64,000 bases of DNA. Origin: Thermoanaerobacterales bacterium. Lineage in GTDB: Bacteria > Bacillota > Thermosediminibacteria > Thermosediminibacterales > Tepidanaerobacteraceae. The stretch lies in assembly GCA_012840135.1 (NCBI GenBank), contig DUMA01000001.1, forward strand, positions 1 through 64,000. Reading direction: 5' to 3'. Shown piece after piece: positions 32,529 through 40,622 of the stretch; the stretch's first letter is position 1; each line of letters starts with the position of its first letter. The notes beneath the pieces are model-generated. The model ran no database searches. It saw nothing but the letters and a program-made list of their open reading frames with translations, and had not been told where the DNA came from. The position numbers and the translations under genes are program-made.

Positions 32529-32699
32529 AAATTGTAGGGGAAACGACCGTGATATAAGAAGATTAAGACAATAATTTGGATTGCAAAATATCGCATTGGC
32601 AGAGAAGGGAAAAAAGAATATATGCAGAATATTTATATTAGTCTTTTCGGCTATAATGGCACTCCTGCAGTTAGATAATGGAGCAAAAGGAGTGATGTG

Positions 32700-34313
32700 A
32701 TGATCAAGGTTATCATAGCGGATGATGAAGAAAAGGTATGCCAGCTGATTTACCATCTTATTGACTGGAAATCGGTGGATATGGAAATTGTTGGAGTAGC
32801 CCACAACGGCATCGAAACTCTGGAATTGATAAAAACCCTCAGACCGGATCTGGTGATTACGGATATCCGCATGCCGGGATACGATGGGCTGGAATTGATT
32901 AATCTTGGAAAACAGGTAAAAGAAGACATGGATTTTATTATAATCAGCGGATACAGCCATTTTGAATATGCACAGAGCGCCATAAAATACGGCGTCAGCG
33001 ATTATCTGTTAAAACCCATTAAAAAGAACGAGCTTCTAGAAACCCTCAATAAAATACGTAAAAAATACATGCAGAGAGCCGAACGGTTATCTGTTGAAGA
33101 ACGGATGAAAATCCGCCTGCAAAGCGATATCGACAAATTGAGGGCGGGATTTTTCCTGGAAAAATTGCTGCAGAACGATCCGAATCGGGAAAAGATAGAT
33201 ATTGAAAGATGCAATGAGGATCATCATTTAAATTTTAGCCCCGGTTGTTTTCAGATTTTTATCGTAAAACTGGACTATGAATATGAGAATCTGAATGAAA
33301 GCAGCATAAGGATATTGGAAGATAAGGTGGCACAGATTCTCAGAAGCTCTTTGAAAAACGAATGTTTCGACATGGAAATCTGCTTTCACGGAAGCAGGAT
33401 ATACTGCGTGTTAAATTATGAAGACTCGAACAGGAAGACAGTAAGAAAGCAGCTCAAGGCTTGCATGGATGAACTTATGGTGCAGAAGAGCATTTATGAC
33501 AGGATTGAATTTACTATCGGATTGGGCAGTATAACTGACGATATTGATCAGTTGAAATCTTCGATGAAGGTTGCAGAAATGGCTGTACAGCAGCGCCTGA
33601 TTGAAGGGACGGAAAAACTGATAGAAAATGTCCATCAAAAATCTTCCACCGCTCGCATGGATATAATTCTATCGGACCTGATGAAGAGTCTGGAGGCTTC
33701 TATGGAAATTCTGGATTCCGGTGGTGCCATCGAAGCCATCGAGGCTTTTAAAGAAAGCCTTCTGAAAGAGAACATTTCGGGCCATGAAATCCTGCGAACG
33801 GTGATAAGTGCCTTTAATATATATCTGATGCTGCTCAGGAAGCATCAGCTCAATATTGAAAATGCGGAACAATTGTACGAAAAATTTTCTTTGCATGCCG
33901 ACCTTTGCAGTTCGGTAACGAAATTGTTTGACTGCCTCTCAAAATTTATGAGTGAGTCTTTAGATGCCGCCTTCGAAGAGAGAAAGCAGGCTTACATTAA
34001 ACCTATTCGCACGGCAAAACAGTATATTCAGCAGAACTATATGAAGCCCATCACCCTGAAGGAGGTCAGCAGCGTGGTGGGGTTCAATGACTCTTATTTC
34101 AGTTCCCTGTTTAAAAAGGAGACCGGCAAAAACTTTATGGAATATCTTCTGGAAGTACGAATGAACAGGGCAAAGGAATTGTTGAAGGAGACGAATTTGA
34201 GCATAGCCGGCATATGCGAAAAAATCGGATATTCCGATCTGAAGCATTTTACGAAAAGCTTTAAAAAATATACCGGTCTTAATCCGAATGAATTCAGAAA
34301 AATATACTCATAG
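32700..34313 (+). CDS. YesN-type response regulator with AraC DNA-binding domain
   Basis: About 537 residues from ATG 32700 (AAGGAG seven bases upstream; GTG 32697 is closer). The receiver domain covers residues 1-120 with the acidic pair 'Ala-Asp-Asp-Glu', phospho-acceptor Asp55 in 'Ile-Thr-Asp-Ile-Arg-Met-Pro-Gly', and 'Leu-Lys-Pro-Ile'. A long helical linker (120-430) is typical of the YesN family. Two AraC helix-turn-helices end the protein ('Phe-Asn-Asp-Ser-Tyr-Phe-Ser-Ser-Leu-Phe-Lys-Lys-Glu-Thr-Gly' and 'Ile-Gly-Tyr-Ser-Asp-Leu-Lys-His-Phe-Thr-Lys-Ser-Phe'). It should control the sugar transporter downstream. Confidence 0.9.
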   Translation: MIKVIIADDEEKVCQLIYHLIDWKSVDMEIVGVAHNGIETLELIKTLRPDLVITDIRMPGYDGLELINLGKQVKEDMDFIIISGYSHFEYAQSAIKYGVSDYLLKPIKKNELLETLNKIRKKYMQRAERLSVEERMKIRLQSDIDKLRAGFFLEKLLQNDPNREKIDIERCNEDHHLNFSPGCFQIFIVKLDYEYENLNESSIRILEDKVAQILRSSLKNECFDMEICFHGSRIYCVLNYEDSNRKTVRKQLKACMDELMVQKSIYDRIEFTIGLGSITDDIDQLKSSMKVAEMAVQQRLIEGTEKLIENVHQKSSTARMDIILSDLMKSLEASMEILDSGGAIEAIEAFKESLLKENISGHEILRTVISAFNIYLMLLRKHQLNIENAEQLYEKFSLHADLCSSVTKLFDCLSKFMSESLDAAFEERKQAYIKPIRTAKQYIQQNYMKPITLKEVSSVVGFNDSYFSSLFKKETGKNFMEYLLEVRMNRAKELLKETNLSIAGICEKIGYSDLKHFTKSFKKYTGLNPNEFRKIYS

Positions 34314-34326
34314 GCAGGTCATATGT

Positions 34327-35355
34327 GTGAAGAACAGAAATTTTCGATATTTATCCTATCGAGCCTGTTTTATAATTCTGATATTGTTATTTTTAAATGC
34401 CTGCCTGCTGCTGCCATTGACTTTTATATCCATCAATGAAAAAAAGTATGTTTTTATTCTGCTGGTAGGCCTTTACTCGTTTTTTGCCGTTTTATATTCC
34501 GGCTATCGATGGGTTTATCTGCCATACAGGGAAACCAGCAAAGTATTGCAACTTTTTGCCGGAGGGTATACCATGGAAGGCATCTACGAACTGAGGTATC
34601 CCTTCAGTCCGGAAATGGAGTATGCTGTAAAAAAACTGAAGGCATTAATCAACACAAAAGAGCTTATCAGCACTACGAAAAGGCAGGCCCAGTATCTCGC
34701 ACTGCAGAATCAGATAAATCCTCATTTTTTGTACAACAGCCTGGAAGGAATACGGGGCGAAGCCATAGCAGCGGGCCTGAACAATGTGGCGGAGATGACG
34801 GAGGCGCTGGCCACTTTTTTCAGGTATACGATTTCCAACATGGAACACCTGGTTACCTTGGAGGACGAGCTGGCTCACATCGAAAACTATTATATAATCC
34901 AGCAGTTTCGCTTTGGGGAACGGCTGAATTTAAGCATTGAATATGACTGTAAAGACAAGGATGAGATTTTGAAATATCGTTTGCCCAGGCTTACGCTACA
35001 GCCCATCGTAGAAAATTCGATTTTTCATGGCATCGAGAGAAAGATGGGGAAGGGAAGTATTTGCATTAAGATAGAAACCACTTCAAAGCGGCTGATAATA
35101 ACGGTTTCCGATGATGGCCTGGGGATAGAGGAGGACCGGCTGAGGAAGCTGAATGAAAAGCTCAAAACCCAATCCTTCGATTATGTAAAGCAGGACGGTG
35201 AAAGGGAAAACGGGATTGCGCTAATAAATGTTAACAACAGAATCAAGCTTTTGTACGGGGAAGAATACGGAATTAACATTTACAGCACGGTGAATGTGGG
35301 TACCGATGTGGAGATTACCCTGCCGCTGATTGTAGAAGAAGGAAAGGGATCTTGA
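34327..35355 (+). CDS. YesM-type sensor histidine kinase
   Basis: A kinase of 342-355 residues; GTG 34327 has a weak AGGCAGG site and an ATG at 34288 (inside the regulator gene) has none. Two membrane spans lie near the N-terminus. The His-kinase box is 'Gln-Ile-Asn-Pro-His-Phe-Leu-Tyr-Asn-Ser-Leu-Glu', followed by a HATPase domain with 'Ile-Val-Glu-Asn-Ser-Ile-Phe-His-Gly' and 'Ser-Asp-Asp-Gly-Leu-Gly-Ile'. The long extracellular sensor of YesM proteins is missing: only a few residues separate the two spans. It may therefore need a partner protein to sense its signal. Confidence 0.88.
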   Translation: MKNRNFRYLSYRACFIILILLFLNACLLLPLTFISINEKKYVFILLVGLYSFFAVLYSGYRWVYLPYRETSKVLQLFAGGYTMEGIYELRYPFSPEMEYAVKKLKALINTKELISTTKRQAQYLALQNQINPHFLYNSLEGIRGEAIAAGLNNVAEMTEALATFFRYTISNMEHLVTLEDELAHIENYYIIQQFRFGERLNLSIEYDCKDKDEILKYRLPRLTLQPIVENSIFHGIERKMGKGSICIKIETTSKRLIITVSDDGLGIEEDRLRKLNEKLKTQSFDYVKQDGERENGIALINVNNRIKLLYGEEYGINIYSTVNVGTDVEITLPLIVEEGKGS

Positions 35356-36810
35356 ATGAAAGAGGAAGTTTTCAGGCTGGAAAGGGTCACACAGATCGTG
35401 GACGGCATTACCCTTCTGGATAATTTCAGCATGCACATTTTCAAGGGTGAAATTATGGGCCTGGTGTGCATCAATGCCCACGGAAAGGAAGCTTTAATCA
35501 ATCTTCTCTGTCAGAATATCCCCATCCATTACGGGCACATCTATTTTCAGGAAAAACTGGTGAACAATTATGAGCACAGTTCCATGAGCATGAACCCGGT
35601 GGCCGTCATAGAAAAGCAGAGCTGGCTGGTGGAAGATTTGACCGTGGCGGACAATATATTTGTCCTGCGGAAGGGATTTAAAAAATGTATTATCAATCCC
35701 AGAACGCTAAATGCACAATTTCGGCGATTTACGGAGGAAATAGAAATTGACATCGATCCCGGTGAGCCGGTATCCGATCTATCCTTTTTTGAAAAATGCG
35801 TGGTGGAGCTTTTGAAGGCGGTCGTAGCCGGCGCAAAACTCATCATATTTCGAGATATGAGCAACTTTATCAGTGCGGCCGAATTAAAAAAAATCCACGC
35901 TCTAATGCGGCATTACTCGAAGAGAGGTCTTTCTTTTTTATACATATGCAATCACCATGAAGAAGCATTTGAAATATGTGACCGCATTTCAATAATGGAG
36001 AACGGAAAAGTCTTGAAAGTCTTGAGTAAAAAGGATTTCCGCTGCGAAATGATAGCCCCGTATACCCTGGACTTTAGTCGCATAGAATCTATACCTGCCC
36101 GAAAGACCAGCATGGATGGAATATTAAAGTTTGAAAATGTGGTTACGGAAAAAATTAAAGATATGAGCTTTACTGTTGAAAAAGGCGAGTGCGTTGTTTT
36201 TCTGGACATAAACAATACGGCTTTGAGCGACATGATTAAACTGATGATGGGTGAAATAAGGCCGGTGTCGGGGAATATCCTGCTGGATGGTCAGCCCTTT
36301 GCCGGAAAGGATTCCGGTTTAAAAAATGAAGTCTGTATCATCCAGGAAAACCCTATTCAGAGCATGTTGTTTGGAGAAATGAGCTATATTGACAATCTGT
36401 GTTTCTTGCTGGACAAGAAGCAGCCCCACCTGTGGATGAACAAAAACGTCAAGAGAAGTGTCATGCAGGAATATGAACCGTTGATCGGAGAGGATATTTA
36501 CGCCAGCGATATTTCGGATCTATCCCTTTTTTCCTTGTACAATCTGGTCTATTATAGAATCCATCTCTATCACCCCGATGCAGTCTTCTGCGTTCAACCC
36601 TTTTCGGGCGCGGACATGTACCTCAGGCGCCACATTGTTGAATTAATCAATCAGTTGCGGAAAAAAAGGATTACAGTGATCATTCTGGCGGTGAATATTG
36701 CCGATTCTCTGGTGGTGGCCGACCGCCTGATGGTGATAGAGCAGGGGCGGCTTCGCAAGGAATACCGGAGCGAGGAATTTCATTTCTTTCGTGAAAGTCA
36801 TTACAGATAA
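35356..36810 (+). CDS. Degenerate double ABC-ATPase (predicted non-hydrolytic)
   Basis: The 484-residue protein has the architecture of an RbsA-like double ATPase but its active sites are lost. In the first half, Walker A has become 'Cys-Ile-Asn-Ala-His-Gly-Lys-Glu', missing the first Gly and the Ser/Thr after Lys, and Walker B reads 'Leu-Ile-Ile-Phe-Arg-Asp-Met-Ser' in place of Asp-Glu-Pro-Thr. In the second half the Walker A loop is 'Leu-Asp-Ile-Asn-Asn-Thr-Ala'. No intact LSGGQ is visible. The start lies directly after the kinase stop, and an intact RbsA-like ATPase follows 200 bases later. A regulatory or scaffolding role between kinase and transporter is inferred. Confidence 0.8.
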   Translation: MKEEVFRLERVTQIVDGITLLDNFSMHIFKGEIMGLVCINAHGKEALINLLCQNIPIHYGHIYFQEKLVNNYEHSSMSMNPVAVIEKQSWLVEDLTVADNIFVLRKGFKKCIINPRTLNAQFRRFTEEIEIDIDPGEPVSDLSFFEKCVVELLKAVVAGAKLIIFRDMSNFISAAELKKIHALMRHYSKRGLSFLYICNHHEEAFEICDRISIMENGKVLKVLSKKDFRCEMIAPYTLDFSRIESIPARKTSMDGILKFENVVTEKIKDMSFTVEKGECVVFLDINNTALSDMIKLMMGEIRPVSGNILLDGQPFAGKDSGLKNEVCIIQENPIQSMLFGEMSYIDNLCFLLDKKQPHLWMNKNVKRSVMQEYEPLIGEDIYASDISDLSLFSLYNLVYYRIHLYHPDAVFCVQPFSGADMYLRRHIVELINQLRKKRITVIILAVNIADSLVVADRLMVIEQGRLRKEYRSEEFHFFRESHYR

Positions 36811-36812
36811 AA

Positions 36813-36845
36813 AAAACCGTCCTCGGTGGGGAGCGGTTTTCTTTT
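36813..36845 (+). terminator. Terminator after the degenerate ATPase gene
   Basis: AAAACCG (36813-36819) pairs with CGGTTTT (36834-36840), with inner CTC/GAG pairing and trailing CTTTTG. It separates the regulatory genes from the transporter genes. Confidence 0.7.
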
Positions 36846-37007
36846 GTACTGGCAGCAGCCGTACAAAACTTCAAAAAAATGTCCCCCTGATTCCAAAGTT
36901 TTTCTCCTTATCTTCCGAAAGTTAAGATGATATATTAAAAAAAGAGTGAAAAGTAAATGAAAATTGCAACTATACAGGGTTTTAAAAGATGGAAACGGGT
37001 GAAATAC

Positions 37008-38534
37008 ATGCGGGATTATATTGTTGAAATAGAGCACTTAAATAAAGCTTTTCCGGGGGTCAAAGCGCTGGACGATGTATCATTCAAATTGAAGGCAGGA
37101 GAGGTTATGGCGCTGGTGGGAGAGAACGGTGCCGGGAAATCAACGCTGGTCAAAATAATCAGCGGGGTATACACGAGAGACAGCGGGGACATGATCATCT
37201 TCGGCAAAAGGGTGGATGAATTGACTCCGCGGAAGGCCCGGGAACTGGGCGTGGCAATGATACATCAGGAATTGAACCTGTGTCCCCATCTTTCCGTAGC
37301 CGAAAATATCTTTTTGGGACGTGAAATGACCCGGGGTTGGGTCCTATCCGACGGTGAGATGAATAAAAGGGCAAAGCTCATTCTTGAAAGGTTTAATATT
37401 AATATTCCGCCGGAAACCATCGTGGGGGATCTTGCCGTTTCAAAGCAGCAGATGGTGGAAATCGCAAAAGCCCTTTCGATAAATGCCAGAATACTGATAA
37501 TGGATGAGCCCACTTCCGCTCTGACATCGAAGGAGATCAACGAACTGTTTGAAATTATCGGCAGGTTGAGGGATGAGGGCTGCGGCATTATATACATTTC
37601 TCACCGGCTGGAAGAGCTTCAGCGCATTGCAGATCGAGTGACGGTGATGCGAGATGGCAGACATATAATGACCGCCAATTTTTCCGATGTTACCATGCAG
37701 GATATCATTACCGGCATGGTGGGACGGGAGATAAAGGAGAAATTTCCAAGGGTGAATGTAAGACGGGGCAGGAAAATCCTGGAAGTCAGGAATCTGAATG
37801 CCGGAAGGCTGGTAAGGGATGTCAGCTTCGAGCTGTACGAGGGGGAGATTTTGGGAATAGCCGGGCTCATGGGCGCCGGGCGCACGGAGACCACCAGGGC
37901 CATCTTCGGAGCCGACCCGAAGGAATCCGGAGAGATTATCCTGGATGGTAAACCGGTCGATATAAATGAACCGCTGGATGCCATAAAGGCGGGTATTGTG
38001 CTGGTCCCCGAAGATAGAAAAAAAGATGGTCTGTGCATCAGGCTGAGTGTTCGGGACAATATAGCCCTGCCGAATCTGGATATGCTTGTCAAATCATGGA
38101 GCGTCATCGAAAGGAGGAAAGAAAAGAACATGGTGGAAAAGGCCATAGCCGACCTTATGATAAAGCTGCCCGACAGCGAAGTTGAAGCCGGCAGCCTTTC
38201 CGGGGGGAATCAGCAGAAGGTGGTGGTCAGCAAATGGCTGGCCAGAAACTCCCGCGTGGTAATGTTCGATGAGCCCACGAGAGGCATCGATGTGGCGGCC
38301 AAGGTGGAAATATACAATCTGATGAACCATTTAAAAAGACAGGGGATCGGCGTTCTCTTTGTTTCTTCGGAAATGCCCGAGATCCTGGGCATGAGCGACA
38401 GAATACTGGTAATGTGTGACGGGAGGATCACCGGTGAGCTGGACATAAAGGATGCCACGCAGAACCTTATTCTGGAATATGCTACCAGGTTCGACAGCAG
38501 AACAGGCGATGCGGCCATCGGCCGAGCCATTTAA
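37008..38534 (+). CDS. Sugar ABC transporter ATP-binding protein (RbsA/MglA-like)
   Basis: I start at ATG 37008, where homology to the family begins (Met-Arg-Asp-Tyr-Ile-Val-Glu-Ile), giving 508 residues; 36957 would add 17 unsupported residues. The first half has an intact Walker A (Gly-Glu-Asn-Gly-Ala-Gly-Lys-Ser-Thr) and 'Met-Asp-Glu-Pro-Thr-Ser-Ala'. The second half has the altered loop 'Gly-Leu-Met-Gly-Ala-Gly-Arg-Thr-Glu' and 'Leu-Ser-Gly-Gly-Asn-Gln-Gln-Lys', both normal for RbsA. It powers uptake of a pentose or similar sugar with the next two genes. Confidence 0.93.
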   Translation: MRDYIVEIEHLNKAFPGVKALDDVSFKLKAGEVMALVGENGAGKSTLVKIISGVYTRDSGDMIIFGKRVDELTPRKARELGVAMIHQELNLCPHLSVAENIFLGREMTRGWVLSDGEMNKRAKLILERFNINIPPETIVGDLAVSKQQMVEIAKALSINARILIMDEPTSALTSKEINELFEIIGRLRDEGCGIIYISHRLEELQRIADRVTVMRDGRHIMTANFSDVTMQDIITGMVGREIKEKFPRVNVRRGRKILEVRNLNAGRLVRDVSFELYEGEILGIAGLMGAGRTETTRAIFGADPKESGEIILDGKPVDINEPLDAIKAGIVLVPEDRKKDGLCIRLSVRDNIALPNLDMLVKSWSVIERRKEKNMVEKAIADLMIKLPDSEVEAGSLSGGNQQKVVVSKWLARNSRVVMFDEPTRGIDVAAKVEIYNLMNHLKRQGIGVLFVSSEMPEILGMSDRILVMCDGRITGELDIKDATQNLILEYATRFDSRTGDAAIGRAI

Positions 38535-38553
38535 AAAGTTAGGGGAGTAGTGC

Positions 38554-39597
38554 ATGAAAAGGAGAGAAAAACAAAATTATTTAAAGAGAATGCTGGCCAT
38601 AAGGGGTATGGGTCAGGTCATAACAGTGACTGTGGGTCTCATCATACTGTGCATCGTATTCGGCATTTTAAATCCCATTTTCTTTTCAGGGAGAAACATC
38701 AGCAACCTGCTGCGCCAGATAGCTCCCATTCTTCTTATCGGTATAGGGCAATCCTATGTGCTGATCACCGGCAACATAGATCTGTCCATAGGTTCCGTTG
38801 TGGGCATGAGCTGCATGATTTCAGCCACTCTGATGACAAAGGGCGTAAACCCATGGGTGGCAGTATTGATTACCATCGTTTGCTGTATAACTGTGGGGGT
38901 GATAAACGGTCAACTGGTGGCAGGCTGCAAGCTGCCGGCTTTCATTGCCACGCTGGGCACCATGACCATTGCAAGGGGCATAGCTCAGATCGTAAACAAT
39001 AATTACAATACTGACTCCATAGGCAGCGCGGCAAAAGGTTTCAGGGACTTTTTTTACTACGGCAAACTTCTCGGTATATACAACACCATATGGATAACGC
39101 TGGTGCTGTGGCTCATATTCAATTTTATACTGAGCAGGACGCGATGGGGCCGCTATATTTATGCGATAGGCAGCAATCTTGAAGCGGCAAGGCTATCCGG
39201 AGTCAATATAGTTTCCACCACTACATATGCATATGTGGTGAGTGCCCTTTGTTCCTGCACGGTGGGATTCATAATATGTGCTACCAGCGGCATGGGCACA
39301 ATGGATGCGGGCAATACATACGAGCTTTATGCGGTGGCGGCTTCAGTCATCGGCGGCGTCAGTACCCTGGGAGGTCAGGGCATACTGCTTGGAACGGTGG
39401 TCGGCGCTTCCGTCTGGGGAGTGCTGCAAAACGGCCTGCAATTTGCGGGCGCTCCGGTGGCCATCCGCAATATTGTCATCGGCATCATAGTCATTATCTC
39501 TGTCCTGCTGGATGTGGTGGTGAGAAAGGGCAGACCCAGAAGAAAAAGGGAAAAAGAAAAGGGAAAGCCTGTCAACTACACCGGAGTTAAGGCGTAA
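38554..39597 (+). CDS. Sugar ABC transporter permease (RbsC-like)
   Basis: A 347-residue permease with 8-10 spans. Typical family phrases: 'Asn-Leu-Leu-Arg-Gln-Ile-Ala', 'Ile-Asp-Leu-Ser-Ile-Gly-Ser-Val-Val-Gly', 'Leu-Pro-Ala-Phe-Ile-Ala-Thr-Leu-Gly-Thr', 'Gly-Gly-Val-Ser-Thr-Leu-Gly-Gly-Gln-Gly'. The segment 'Ala-Ala-Arg-Leu-Ser-Gly-Val-Asn' is the EAA-like loop that contacts the ATPase. The C-terminus is very basic. It follows the ATPase by 19 bases. Confidence 0.93.
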   Translation: MKRREKQNYLKRMLAIRGMGQVITVTVGLIILCIVFGILNPIFFSGRNISNLLRQIAPILLIGIGQSYVLITGNIDLSIGSVVGMSCMISATLMTKGVNPWVAVLITIVCCITVGVINGQLVAGCKLPAFIATLGTMTIARGIAQIVNNNYNTDSIGSAAKGFRDFFYYGKLLGIYNTIWITLVLWLIFNFILSRTRWGRYIYAIGSNLEAARLSGVNIVSTTTYAYVVSALCSCTVGFIICATSGMGTMDAGNTYELYAVAASVIGGVSTLGGQGILLGTVVGASVWGVLQNGLQFAGAPVAIRNIVIGIIVIISVLLDVVVRKGRPRRKREKEKGKPVNYTGVKA

Positions 39598-39641
39598 AGC
39601 TTTAACCATAAAAAATAAAAAATCAAAGGGAGGATTGTAAA

Positions 39642-40622
39642 GTGAAACGGAGGGTTTTAGCGTTATTGTTGTGCATCGTGGTGGCTGGAAGTTTACTGGT
39701 GGGTTGCGGAAGTAAACCTGCCGAGCAGCAGTCTCCGGCGCCGGCGGAAAATTCCGCCCAGAGCAAGCCTGAAGAGCAGCCAGCTGCTGAAAAGTACAAA
39801 GTGTACTTGATTACAATGGACCAGATGGATCAGCACTGGGTAAATGTGGATAAGGGCTGCAAAAAAGCGGTGGATGAGCTTGGCAACATCGATTACCAGT
39901 GGCTGGCGCCCGACGTCAAAGATGATGCAAAGCAGATCGAATGCATCAACAATGCGGTGGCCGGCGGCGCCGATGCTATACTGCTTGCCGCCAACGGCCC
40001 TGTAGCCGTCACATCGGCTCTTGAGGAAGCACAAAAGGCCGGAGTAAAGATTGTATATGTAGACTCGCCCGCAGATTTTCCGGGTATTGCCACTTTTGCC
40101 ACCGACAACAAGGCTGCCGGGAAAACCGCAGGGGAGGAGATGCTTAAGGCCCTGCAAGCTGCAGGCATCACGGAAGGCAAGATAGGTATAGTAAATGTCA
40201 ATGCCGCCACGGCGTCTGTTGTGGCAAGGGAGGAAGGTTTCCGCTCCGCCTTTGAAGGTTCAAAGTTCCAGATCCTGGAGACACAGTACAGTGAAGGCGA
40301 TGCTGCAAAATCCAAGGATATAGCCGCCAACTACATCACTCAGGGCTGTGTAGGAATCTTCGGCGCCAATGAAGGCTGTACCGTAGGGACCGGCAACGCC
40401 ATCAAGGAAGCAGGGAAAAATGTTATCGGTGTCGGGTTTGATAAGTCCGATGCGATTCTCAATCTTATAAAAGAAGGGTTCCTGGTATGCACCATGGCTC
40501 AAAACCCGGATGTCATGGGCTACGAGGGCATGAAGGCTGCAGCTCAGGCTCTGAGCGGCCAGTATACAGGTCCAAAAAATGTTGATACCGGCGTGACGGT
40601 GCTCGACAAATCCAAGCTGTGA
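39642..40622 (+). CDS. Sugar ABC transporter substrate-binding lipoprotein (RbsB-like)
   Basis: A 326-residue lipoprotein behind GGGAGGATTG. The lipobox is Leu-Leu-Val-Gly-Cys (Cys22), followed by a Pro/Ala/Glu linker and a Peripla_BP_4 domain: 'Met-Asp-Gln-Met-Asp-Gln-His-Trp', 'Asn-Asn-Ala-Val-Ala-Gly-Gly-Ala-Asp-Ala-Ile-Leu-Leu', 'Val-Asp-Ser-Pro-Ala', 'Val-Gly-Phe-Asp-Lys-Ser'. It captures the sugar outside the cell for the RbsAC-like importer. The exact sugar cannot be read. A strong terminator follows. Confidence 0.93.
   Translation: MKRRVLALLLCIVVAGSLLVGCGSKPAEQQSPAPAENSAQSKPEEQPAAEKYKVYLITMDQMDQHWVNVDKGCKKAVDELGNIDYQWLAPDVKDDAKQIECINNAVAGGADAILLAANGPVAVTSALEEAQKAGVKIVYVDSPADFPGIATFATDNKAAGKTAGEEMLKALQAAGITEGKIGIVNVNAATASVVAREEGFRSAFEGSKFQILETQYSEGDAAKSKDIAANYITQGCVGIFGANEGCTVGTGNAIKEAGKNVIGVGFDKSDAILNLIKEGFLVCTMAQNPDVMGYEGMKAAAQALSGQYTGPKNVDTGVTVLDKSKL

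Follow-up and report, generated by a model that had tools for sequence, protein, structure and literature searches.

An ATPase-dead relative of RbsA as candidate input subunit of a sensor-less kinase beside a sugar importer

The window, a stretch of 64,000 nucleotides from a Thermoanaerobacterales bacterium, carries a gene for a relative of the importer motor RbsA with dead ATPase motifs, here termed psA (pseudo-RbsA). The reading that we prefer, whose chances we judge to be evenly balanced, is that psA is the input subunit of the neighbouring kinase, that the unit formed by regulator, kinase and psA switches on rbsACB, and that psA most likely touches the permease RbsC. Loss of motifs, conservation, selection, gene order, co-occurrence with the importer, a kinase lacking a sensor and a repeat ahead of rbsA are all directly observed. 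The first-pass annotation had placed psA between an almost sensor-free kinase and an intact RbsACB set, and this is borne out by Pfam domains, by the hairpin form of the kinase and by the motifs of the cognate RbsA (Table 1).

Table 1. Features of the psA-rbsACB cassette in the window
Feature	Position	Strand	Remarks
YesN-type response regulator (receiver + AraC HTH)	32697..34313	+	Pfam Response_reg, HTH_18, HTH_AraC
Sensor kinase, 355 aa	34288..35355	+	membrane hairpin (about 24-51, 55-91), His_kinase, HATPase_c
psA (pseudo-RbsA), 484 aa	35356..36810	+	double nucleotide-binding domain, motifs dead in both halves
Probable terminator of the regulator-kinase-psA unit: hairpin with T-rich tail	36813..36840	+	fold -13.1 kcal/mol, z -2.64
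Two-copy direct repeat TCCAAA-N5-CCCCCTTA, copies about 22 bp apart	36870..36910	+	position matrix 44.1 bits
Extended -10 box TGATATATT of rbsA promoter	36928..36936	+	near-fixed distance behind repeat, conserved
RbsA, intact double ATPase	36957..38534	+	longest frame
RbsC permease	38554..39597	+	Pfam BPD_transp_2
RbsB sugar-binding lipoprotein	39642..40622	+	Pfam Peripla_BP_4

Structure and distribution of psA

The psA ATG immediately follows the kinase stop in the window. Among NCBIfam models, AraG, XylG and RbsA are the best matches of psA and span its whole length (131-160 bits against cut-offs of 689-745); the top three scores of 160, 159 and 153 bits stay below their respective cut-offs of 689, 699 and 745, so that psA does not qualify as an RbsA-like equivalog. 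Pfam yields a single ABC_tran match, in the first half. The best of five AlphaFold2 models (mean pLDDT 86.4, pTM 0.82) retains two nucleotide-binding domains, and VIA alignment of this model finds the tandem domains arranged as in DppD (Z 27.2, rmsd 4.3, 466 aligned). The RbsA-type layout of two fused nucleotide-binding domains in about 500 amino acids, proposed from the sequence alone, is thus confirmed by NCBIfam, the structural model and PDB matches. An RbsA-type chain was absent from the PDB sequence search at E 1e-60 and likewise from the Foldseek and VIA lists, which is uninformative either way.

In the window protein, the first Walker A reads CINAHGKEA (canonical GxNGAGKST), the first Walker B IIFRDMSN, and CN replaces SH at the H-switch; the second Walker A is LDINNT, the second Walker B VQPFSGAD, and the two signatures are LSFFEK and LSLFSL. 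None of 27 aligned orthologs keeps the H-switch histidine, the first-signature serine, the second-signature GG or, in the second half, the Walker B aspartate, the catalytic glutamate or the Walker A arginine/lysine. The first Walker B aspartate is found in one ortholog and the first catalytic glutamate in three, never together, so a functional first site (GKST, DE, H-switch histidine and signature) does not occur in psA. Loss of Walker A, Walker B and signature from both halves, as originally claimed, therefore stands across the orthologs, with two reservations. The first Walker lysine is kept in 16/27 (followed by S/T in 5/27) and replaced by Q, E, R or L in the other 11, which indicates that a remnant of the first P-loop persists in deep branches. 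A published account describes the second site of canonical RbsA as already degenerate and devoid of the Walker A lysine (PMC11466899), and the same is visible in the cognate RbsA rows of our alignment; loss in the second half of psA is consequently only partly new.

Not all former RbsA positions have simply relaxed. Across 121 columns that are near-invariant in 25 RbsA rows, psA keeps 28, shows another conserved residue in 27 and is relaxed in 66. Conserved substitutions occupy former catalytic sites, namely NHH at the H-switch and QPF-AD at the second Walker B. The best conserved stretch of the protein, residues 193-209 (FLYICNHHEEAF), lies at the H-switch, followed by 94-108 (DLTVADNIFVLRRGF) and 21-36. 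Residues 94-108 are located just behind the Q-loop position, a part that presumably faces the permease coupling helix, as we take it to do in ABC importers.

Further degenerate RbsA proteins adjacent to kinases, a search proposed with the original observation, were indeed found: after removal of duplicates, 29 distinct psA loci are scattered over Clostridia, with 36-72% identity to the window psA (L039 being the most distant at 36%). The frame is open in 28 of them. In the remaining one (L034:8001-9426), psA is frameshifted near residue 91-107 in the assembly, by sequencing error or real loss. This row and L011, a near copy of L035, were left out of the non-redundant 27-row alignment, and L036 (27% identity) was rejected as an unrelated ABC protein. 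At E<=1e-45, psA occurs in 5/26 genomes of the class of the window genome and in 6/398 of a sample of its phylum; three further orders contain it in 3/345, 3/10 and 4/17 genomes. A collection of named genomes contributed 19 orthologs (L017-L035, 52-72% identity); hosts include Tepidanaerobacter, Marasmitruncus, Anaerotruncus, Anaeromassilibacillus, Caproiciproducens, Clostridium, Pygmaiobacter and two Lachnospiraceae MAGs. Identity to the window protein is 69% for the psA of Marasmitruncus and 71% for that of an uncultured Clostridiaceae MAG, no lower than within its own family (66-72%); this suggests movement of the cassette between lineages.

psA is under selection. Six of nine pairs had usable dS, and their dN/dS (NG86) amounted to 0.061, 0.066, 0.071, 0.088, 0.040 and 0.088, one pair being near saturation at dS 2.25; where measurable in the same pairs, values were 0.036-0.055 for RbsA and 0.024-0.115 for the kinase. 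In a tree of 36 rows, psA forms one clade (100/100) apart from the clade of cognate RbsA (100/100), and thus it is no recent duplicate of the neighbouring rbsA; the tree program warned that a long RbsA row (L006) meets the psA branch. When 398 genomes were searched with a broader profile that includes distant members (up to three candidates scored per genome), the six known genomes reached 721-810 bits and all else at most 241. All of 24 further relatives that were fetched have intact Walker A, two DEP boxes, signature and SH. The family is therefore sharply bounded, and independent origins of dead RbsA were seen neither in the profile search nor among the fetched relatives.

The signalling unit and its predicted operator

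In the kinase, two membrane helices separated by a few residues are connected to the catalytic domains through a linker of about 40 residues. That it has no external sensor, close to the first suspicion of almost none, agrees with its model, itself weak (pLDDT 70.5, pTM 0.51), in which no extracellular domain is present, and with Pfam, by which HAMP and sensor domains are absent from 18/18 orthologs. The two other kinases of the His_kinase family in the same genome (E<=1e-10) are longer and possess inputs of their own: HAMP behind a long N-terminal region, or 5TM plus GAF. Encoded together with an ABC transporter and lacking an extracellular sensor, the kinase matches transporter-coupled two-component systems (Pst/PhoR, Bce) in this respect. 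No binding-protein gene lies among regulator, kinase and psA, and RbsB, encoded downstream, is the only such protein in the cassette.

psA is firmly tied to this kinase. All 29 loci have psA directly behind the same kinase type, and the distance from kinase stop to psA start is -50 to +15 nt in 22/23 loci, the frameshifted L034 being the exception. The regulator, whose true start in the window may be the ATG at 32700, adjoins in every locus that extends that far.

A direct repeat is present in the psA-rbsA gap next to the rbsA -10 box in 20/20 loci; the box reads TGCTATACT in many orthologs, and the repeat of L029 overlaps the psA end. With a position matrix of the repeat, the 20 loci score 32.7-53.0 bits, in part by construction, as 19 of these sites served to train it; among 300 shuffled gaps the highest score is 7.1. 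L029, the locus outside the training set, scores 38.4 bits. Elsewhere in loci of up to 17 kb no score exceeds 25.3 bits, that one being the same site one base off, and the repeat is the only strong site in the window. Among eight distinct held-out loci, the best match falls inside the gap in seven; six score 13.2-25.5 bits against 8.9 for the best of 11 control loci, whereas L014 (8.4) stays under this control and L047 has no match. A pattern scan of the genome of the window, allowing up to three mismatches, returned this repeat as single match; the reversed control pattern gave 1 and 3 matches, so the pattern alone is not specific.

The repeat is likely to be an operator of the response regulator, as predicted from its sequence and position. 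AraC proteins typically possess two helix-turn-helix motifs, and two half-sites about 10 bases apart in each copy suit such a regulator. Since the repeat abuts the -10 box and no clear -35 element is seen, the arrangement suits activation, which is the sign of control we infer. Besides the window, L019, L022 and L033 have a hairpin with T-rich tail behind psA. A strict terminator pattern is passed by 3/20 gaps, that of the window not among them, against 0.1 expected; a terminator in every psA-rbsA gap was accordingly rejected. Two transcription units are likely, one comprising regulator, kinase and psA and the other rbsACB under the repeat. GC content is 42.3% in 32697-36810 (regulator-kinase-psA) and 50.2% in 36957-40622 (rbsACB), a difference that hints at separate histories of the two units.

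Behind psA, 27/29 loci have an intact rbsA start. In one exception (L046:2958-3300), rbsA ends after about 40 codons while the repeat is present and psA and kinase are open; in the other (L047), psA is followed by an unrelated frame that looks ArsR-like on inspection and by a run of N. psA is therefore able to persist without an adjacent importer. In the sample of 398 genomes, psA and one RbsC subfamily (E<=1e-85) occur in exactly the same six. The link to the importer is stronger than was known at first, because an operator-like repeat precedes rbsA; together with fixed gene order and co-occurrence, this predicted operator argues that regulator, kinase and psA probably form a dedicated circuit controlling rbsACB.

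The longest rbsA frame of the window begins only about 20 nt behind the -10 box, and homology begins near 37008, where an ATG is the likelier start. Elsewhere in this genome, a pair of RbsA-type genes is arranged in tandem on the same strand (L005, C35:125776-128885). Genes for a ROK-type sugar kinase and a GmhA-like phosphosugar isomerase are found repeatedly next to the cassette (L019:13388-17059, L021, L022, L023, L025-L027, L030, L031, L034), the isomerase in 10/19 loci, and ManA in two. Of ten neighbours scanned, NCBIfam cut-offs were reached by ManA (L019) and a xylulokinase (L024) only. None of these sugar-metabolism genes adjoins the cassette of the window. The importer may serve an unusual hexose or heptose.

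Candidate roles of psA

A kinase without input and a dead motor encoded by adjoining or overlapping genes, together with the operator, make psA a likely input subunit. The hairpin-only kinase would be unable to sense alone, and psA would bind it from the cytoplasm. Most likely psA would also contact the dimer of the permease RbsC, taking the place of RbsA or binding in a similar way, and would relay the loaded or idle state of the importer to the kinase. Regulator, kinase and psA would thus act as one unit and switch on rbsACB via the tandem repeat. Binding to kinase, binding to permease and direction of control are all inferred. That an ATP-dead motor copy seated on the permease serves as sensory domain of the sensor-less kinase, so that engagement of the importer is read without a sugar receptor, is a tentative proposal with chances clearly below even.

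The permease is favoured as the object of sensing because psA is a motor relative, because it travels with one RbsC subfamily and because locked PstB sets the output of PhoR (see below). Docking on the permease is plausible, and the stretch corresponding to the groove is among the best conserved parts of psA. Retention of RbsA residues in the groove (32% and 26%) barely exceeds the overall value of 26% in psA; judged by conservation, permease docking is thus unsupported, these residues showing no special retention. We also compared distances at 15 loci with all six genes, as partial correlation beyond the common trend with 500 permutations. The divergence of psA parallels that of kinase and regulator (partial r 0.57 for both; 0/500 permutations as high) and, weakly, that of RbsB (0.21; 7/500); across these 15 loci it tracks neither RbsC (-0.03; 284/500) nor RbsA (-0.30). 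As the distances are not independent, this is a lean and no proof, placing psA in the signalling unit and counting against tight co-evolution with the permease.

The same co-divergence would be expected if psA were a soluble receptor whose rebuilt nucleotide site binds a ligand in the cytoplasm, for instance the sugar after import or a phosphate of it, and signals to the kinase without the permease. The 27 of 121 RbsA-invariant columns with other conserved residues tell that the sites have not simply drifted, and no part of the protein is better conserved than the H-switch stretch 193-209. On the other hand, 66 of these columns are relaxed, and exact co-occurrence with one RbsC subfamily exceeds what such a receptor needs, unless a shared substrate explains it. 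We consider this reading rather unlikely and rank sensing of the permease by psA somewhat ahead of a free receptor with rebuilt pocket.

psA could also compete with RbsA for RbsC as a decoy or brake, its position in the kinase operon reflecting mere co-regulation. The RbsA-type fold over its full length and the strict linkage to rbsACB fit this role. However, psA belongs to the kinase unit instead of the importer unit, upstream of the operator and probably with no further promoter in front of it; its divergence tracks the kinase, and the kinase would be left without any input. Such a role therefore seems improbable. Even less probable is that the first half of psA binds nucleotide without hydrolysis and reports energy state: the first Walker lysine and the S/T behind it persist in deep branches, but other residues replace the lysine in 11/27 orthologs, no ortholog combines the first Walker aspartate with the catalytic glutamate, and the H-switch is lost in 27/27. 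A functionless, decaying duplicate of rbsA, for which motif loss and the frameshift in L034 might speak, has a negligible chance, being refuted by conserved orthologs with open frames in 28/29 loci, by dN/dS of 0.04-0.09 and by the single psA clade separate from cognate RbsA (100/100). An isolated decayed copy, which would have overturned the original idea, is thereby excluded.

Related systems and implications

The preferred reading, psA as kinase input that reads the importer, has several partial parallels. A study in E. coli reports that locked forms of the motor PstB are by themselves sufficient to determine the output of PhoR, a kinase that lacks a periplasmic sensor (PMC5775613), and in the PstSCAB-PhoU-PhoR system the cytoplasmic go-between PhoU is described as contacting both PstB and the kinase (PMC6978683; PMC5775613). 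The likeness lies in a kinase that has no periplasmic sensor and reads an ABC importer. The candidate go-between here is instead a dead motor copy, the kinase belongs to the YesM/His_kinase family and the regulator to the AraC type. PhoU is not known to be an ABC ATPase.

The CuaDSR type comes closest in logic. A published description reports that in CuaDSR and XylFII-LytSR a duplicated part of an ABC importer is the dedicated sensor of a kinase, and that a YesN/AraC regulator of CuaDSR controls importer genes (PMC10384115). The duplicate in these systems is the extracellular binding protein, whereas here it is the cytoplasmic motor; CuaS has a large extracellular region and HAMP, of which the present kinase has neither. 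An extra solute-binding protein adjoining the kinase, as in the CuaDSR type, is absent from the window cassette.

BceAB-BceRS likewise ties a kinase to an ABC transporter, in a circuit described as controlling the genes of that transporter (PMC6978683). BceAB, an active transporter, is the sensor in its own right, in contrast to psA, which is a separate soluble protein without ATPase motifs beside a sugar-type importer. Bce-type kinases typically have only a short hairpin as input. With RbsA, AraG and XylG, psA shares the full-length fold and layout, but the defining catalytic motifs are gone and it forms a separate clade.

We rate the psA system as a variant of transporter-coupled two-component systems in which the accessory part is a duplicated motor and not a binding protein. 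Literature searches among open-licence PubMed Central papers turned up no title or abstract opening that describes such a protein. Proteins like psA are likely annotated as ATP-binding subunits of sugar transporters, which would make transport predictions misleading. How sensor-less kinases read a transporter still awaits an answer even for PhoR, and a compact, conserved three-gene unit with a dead motor, a hairpin kinase, a single regulator and one predicted operator makes this question directly testable. If our reading is true, ATP-dead copies of importer motors would be a new class of signalling part, and importer pseudo-ATPases would join the pseudoenzymes used in signalling.
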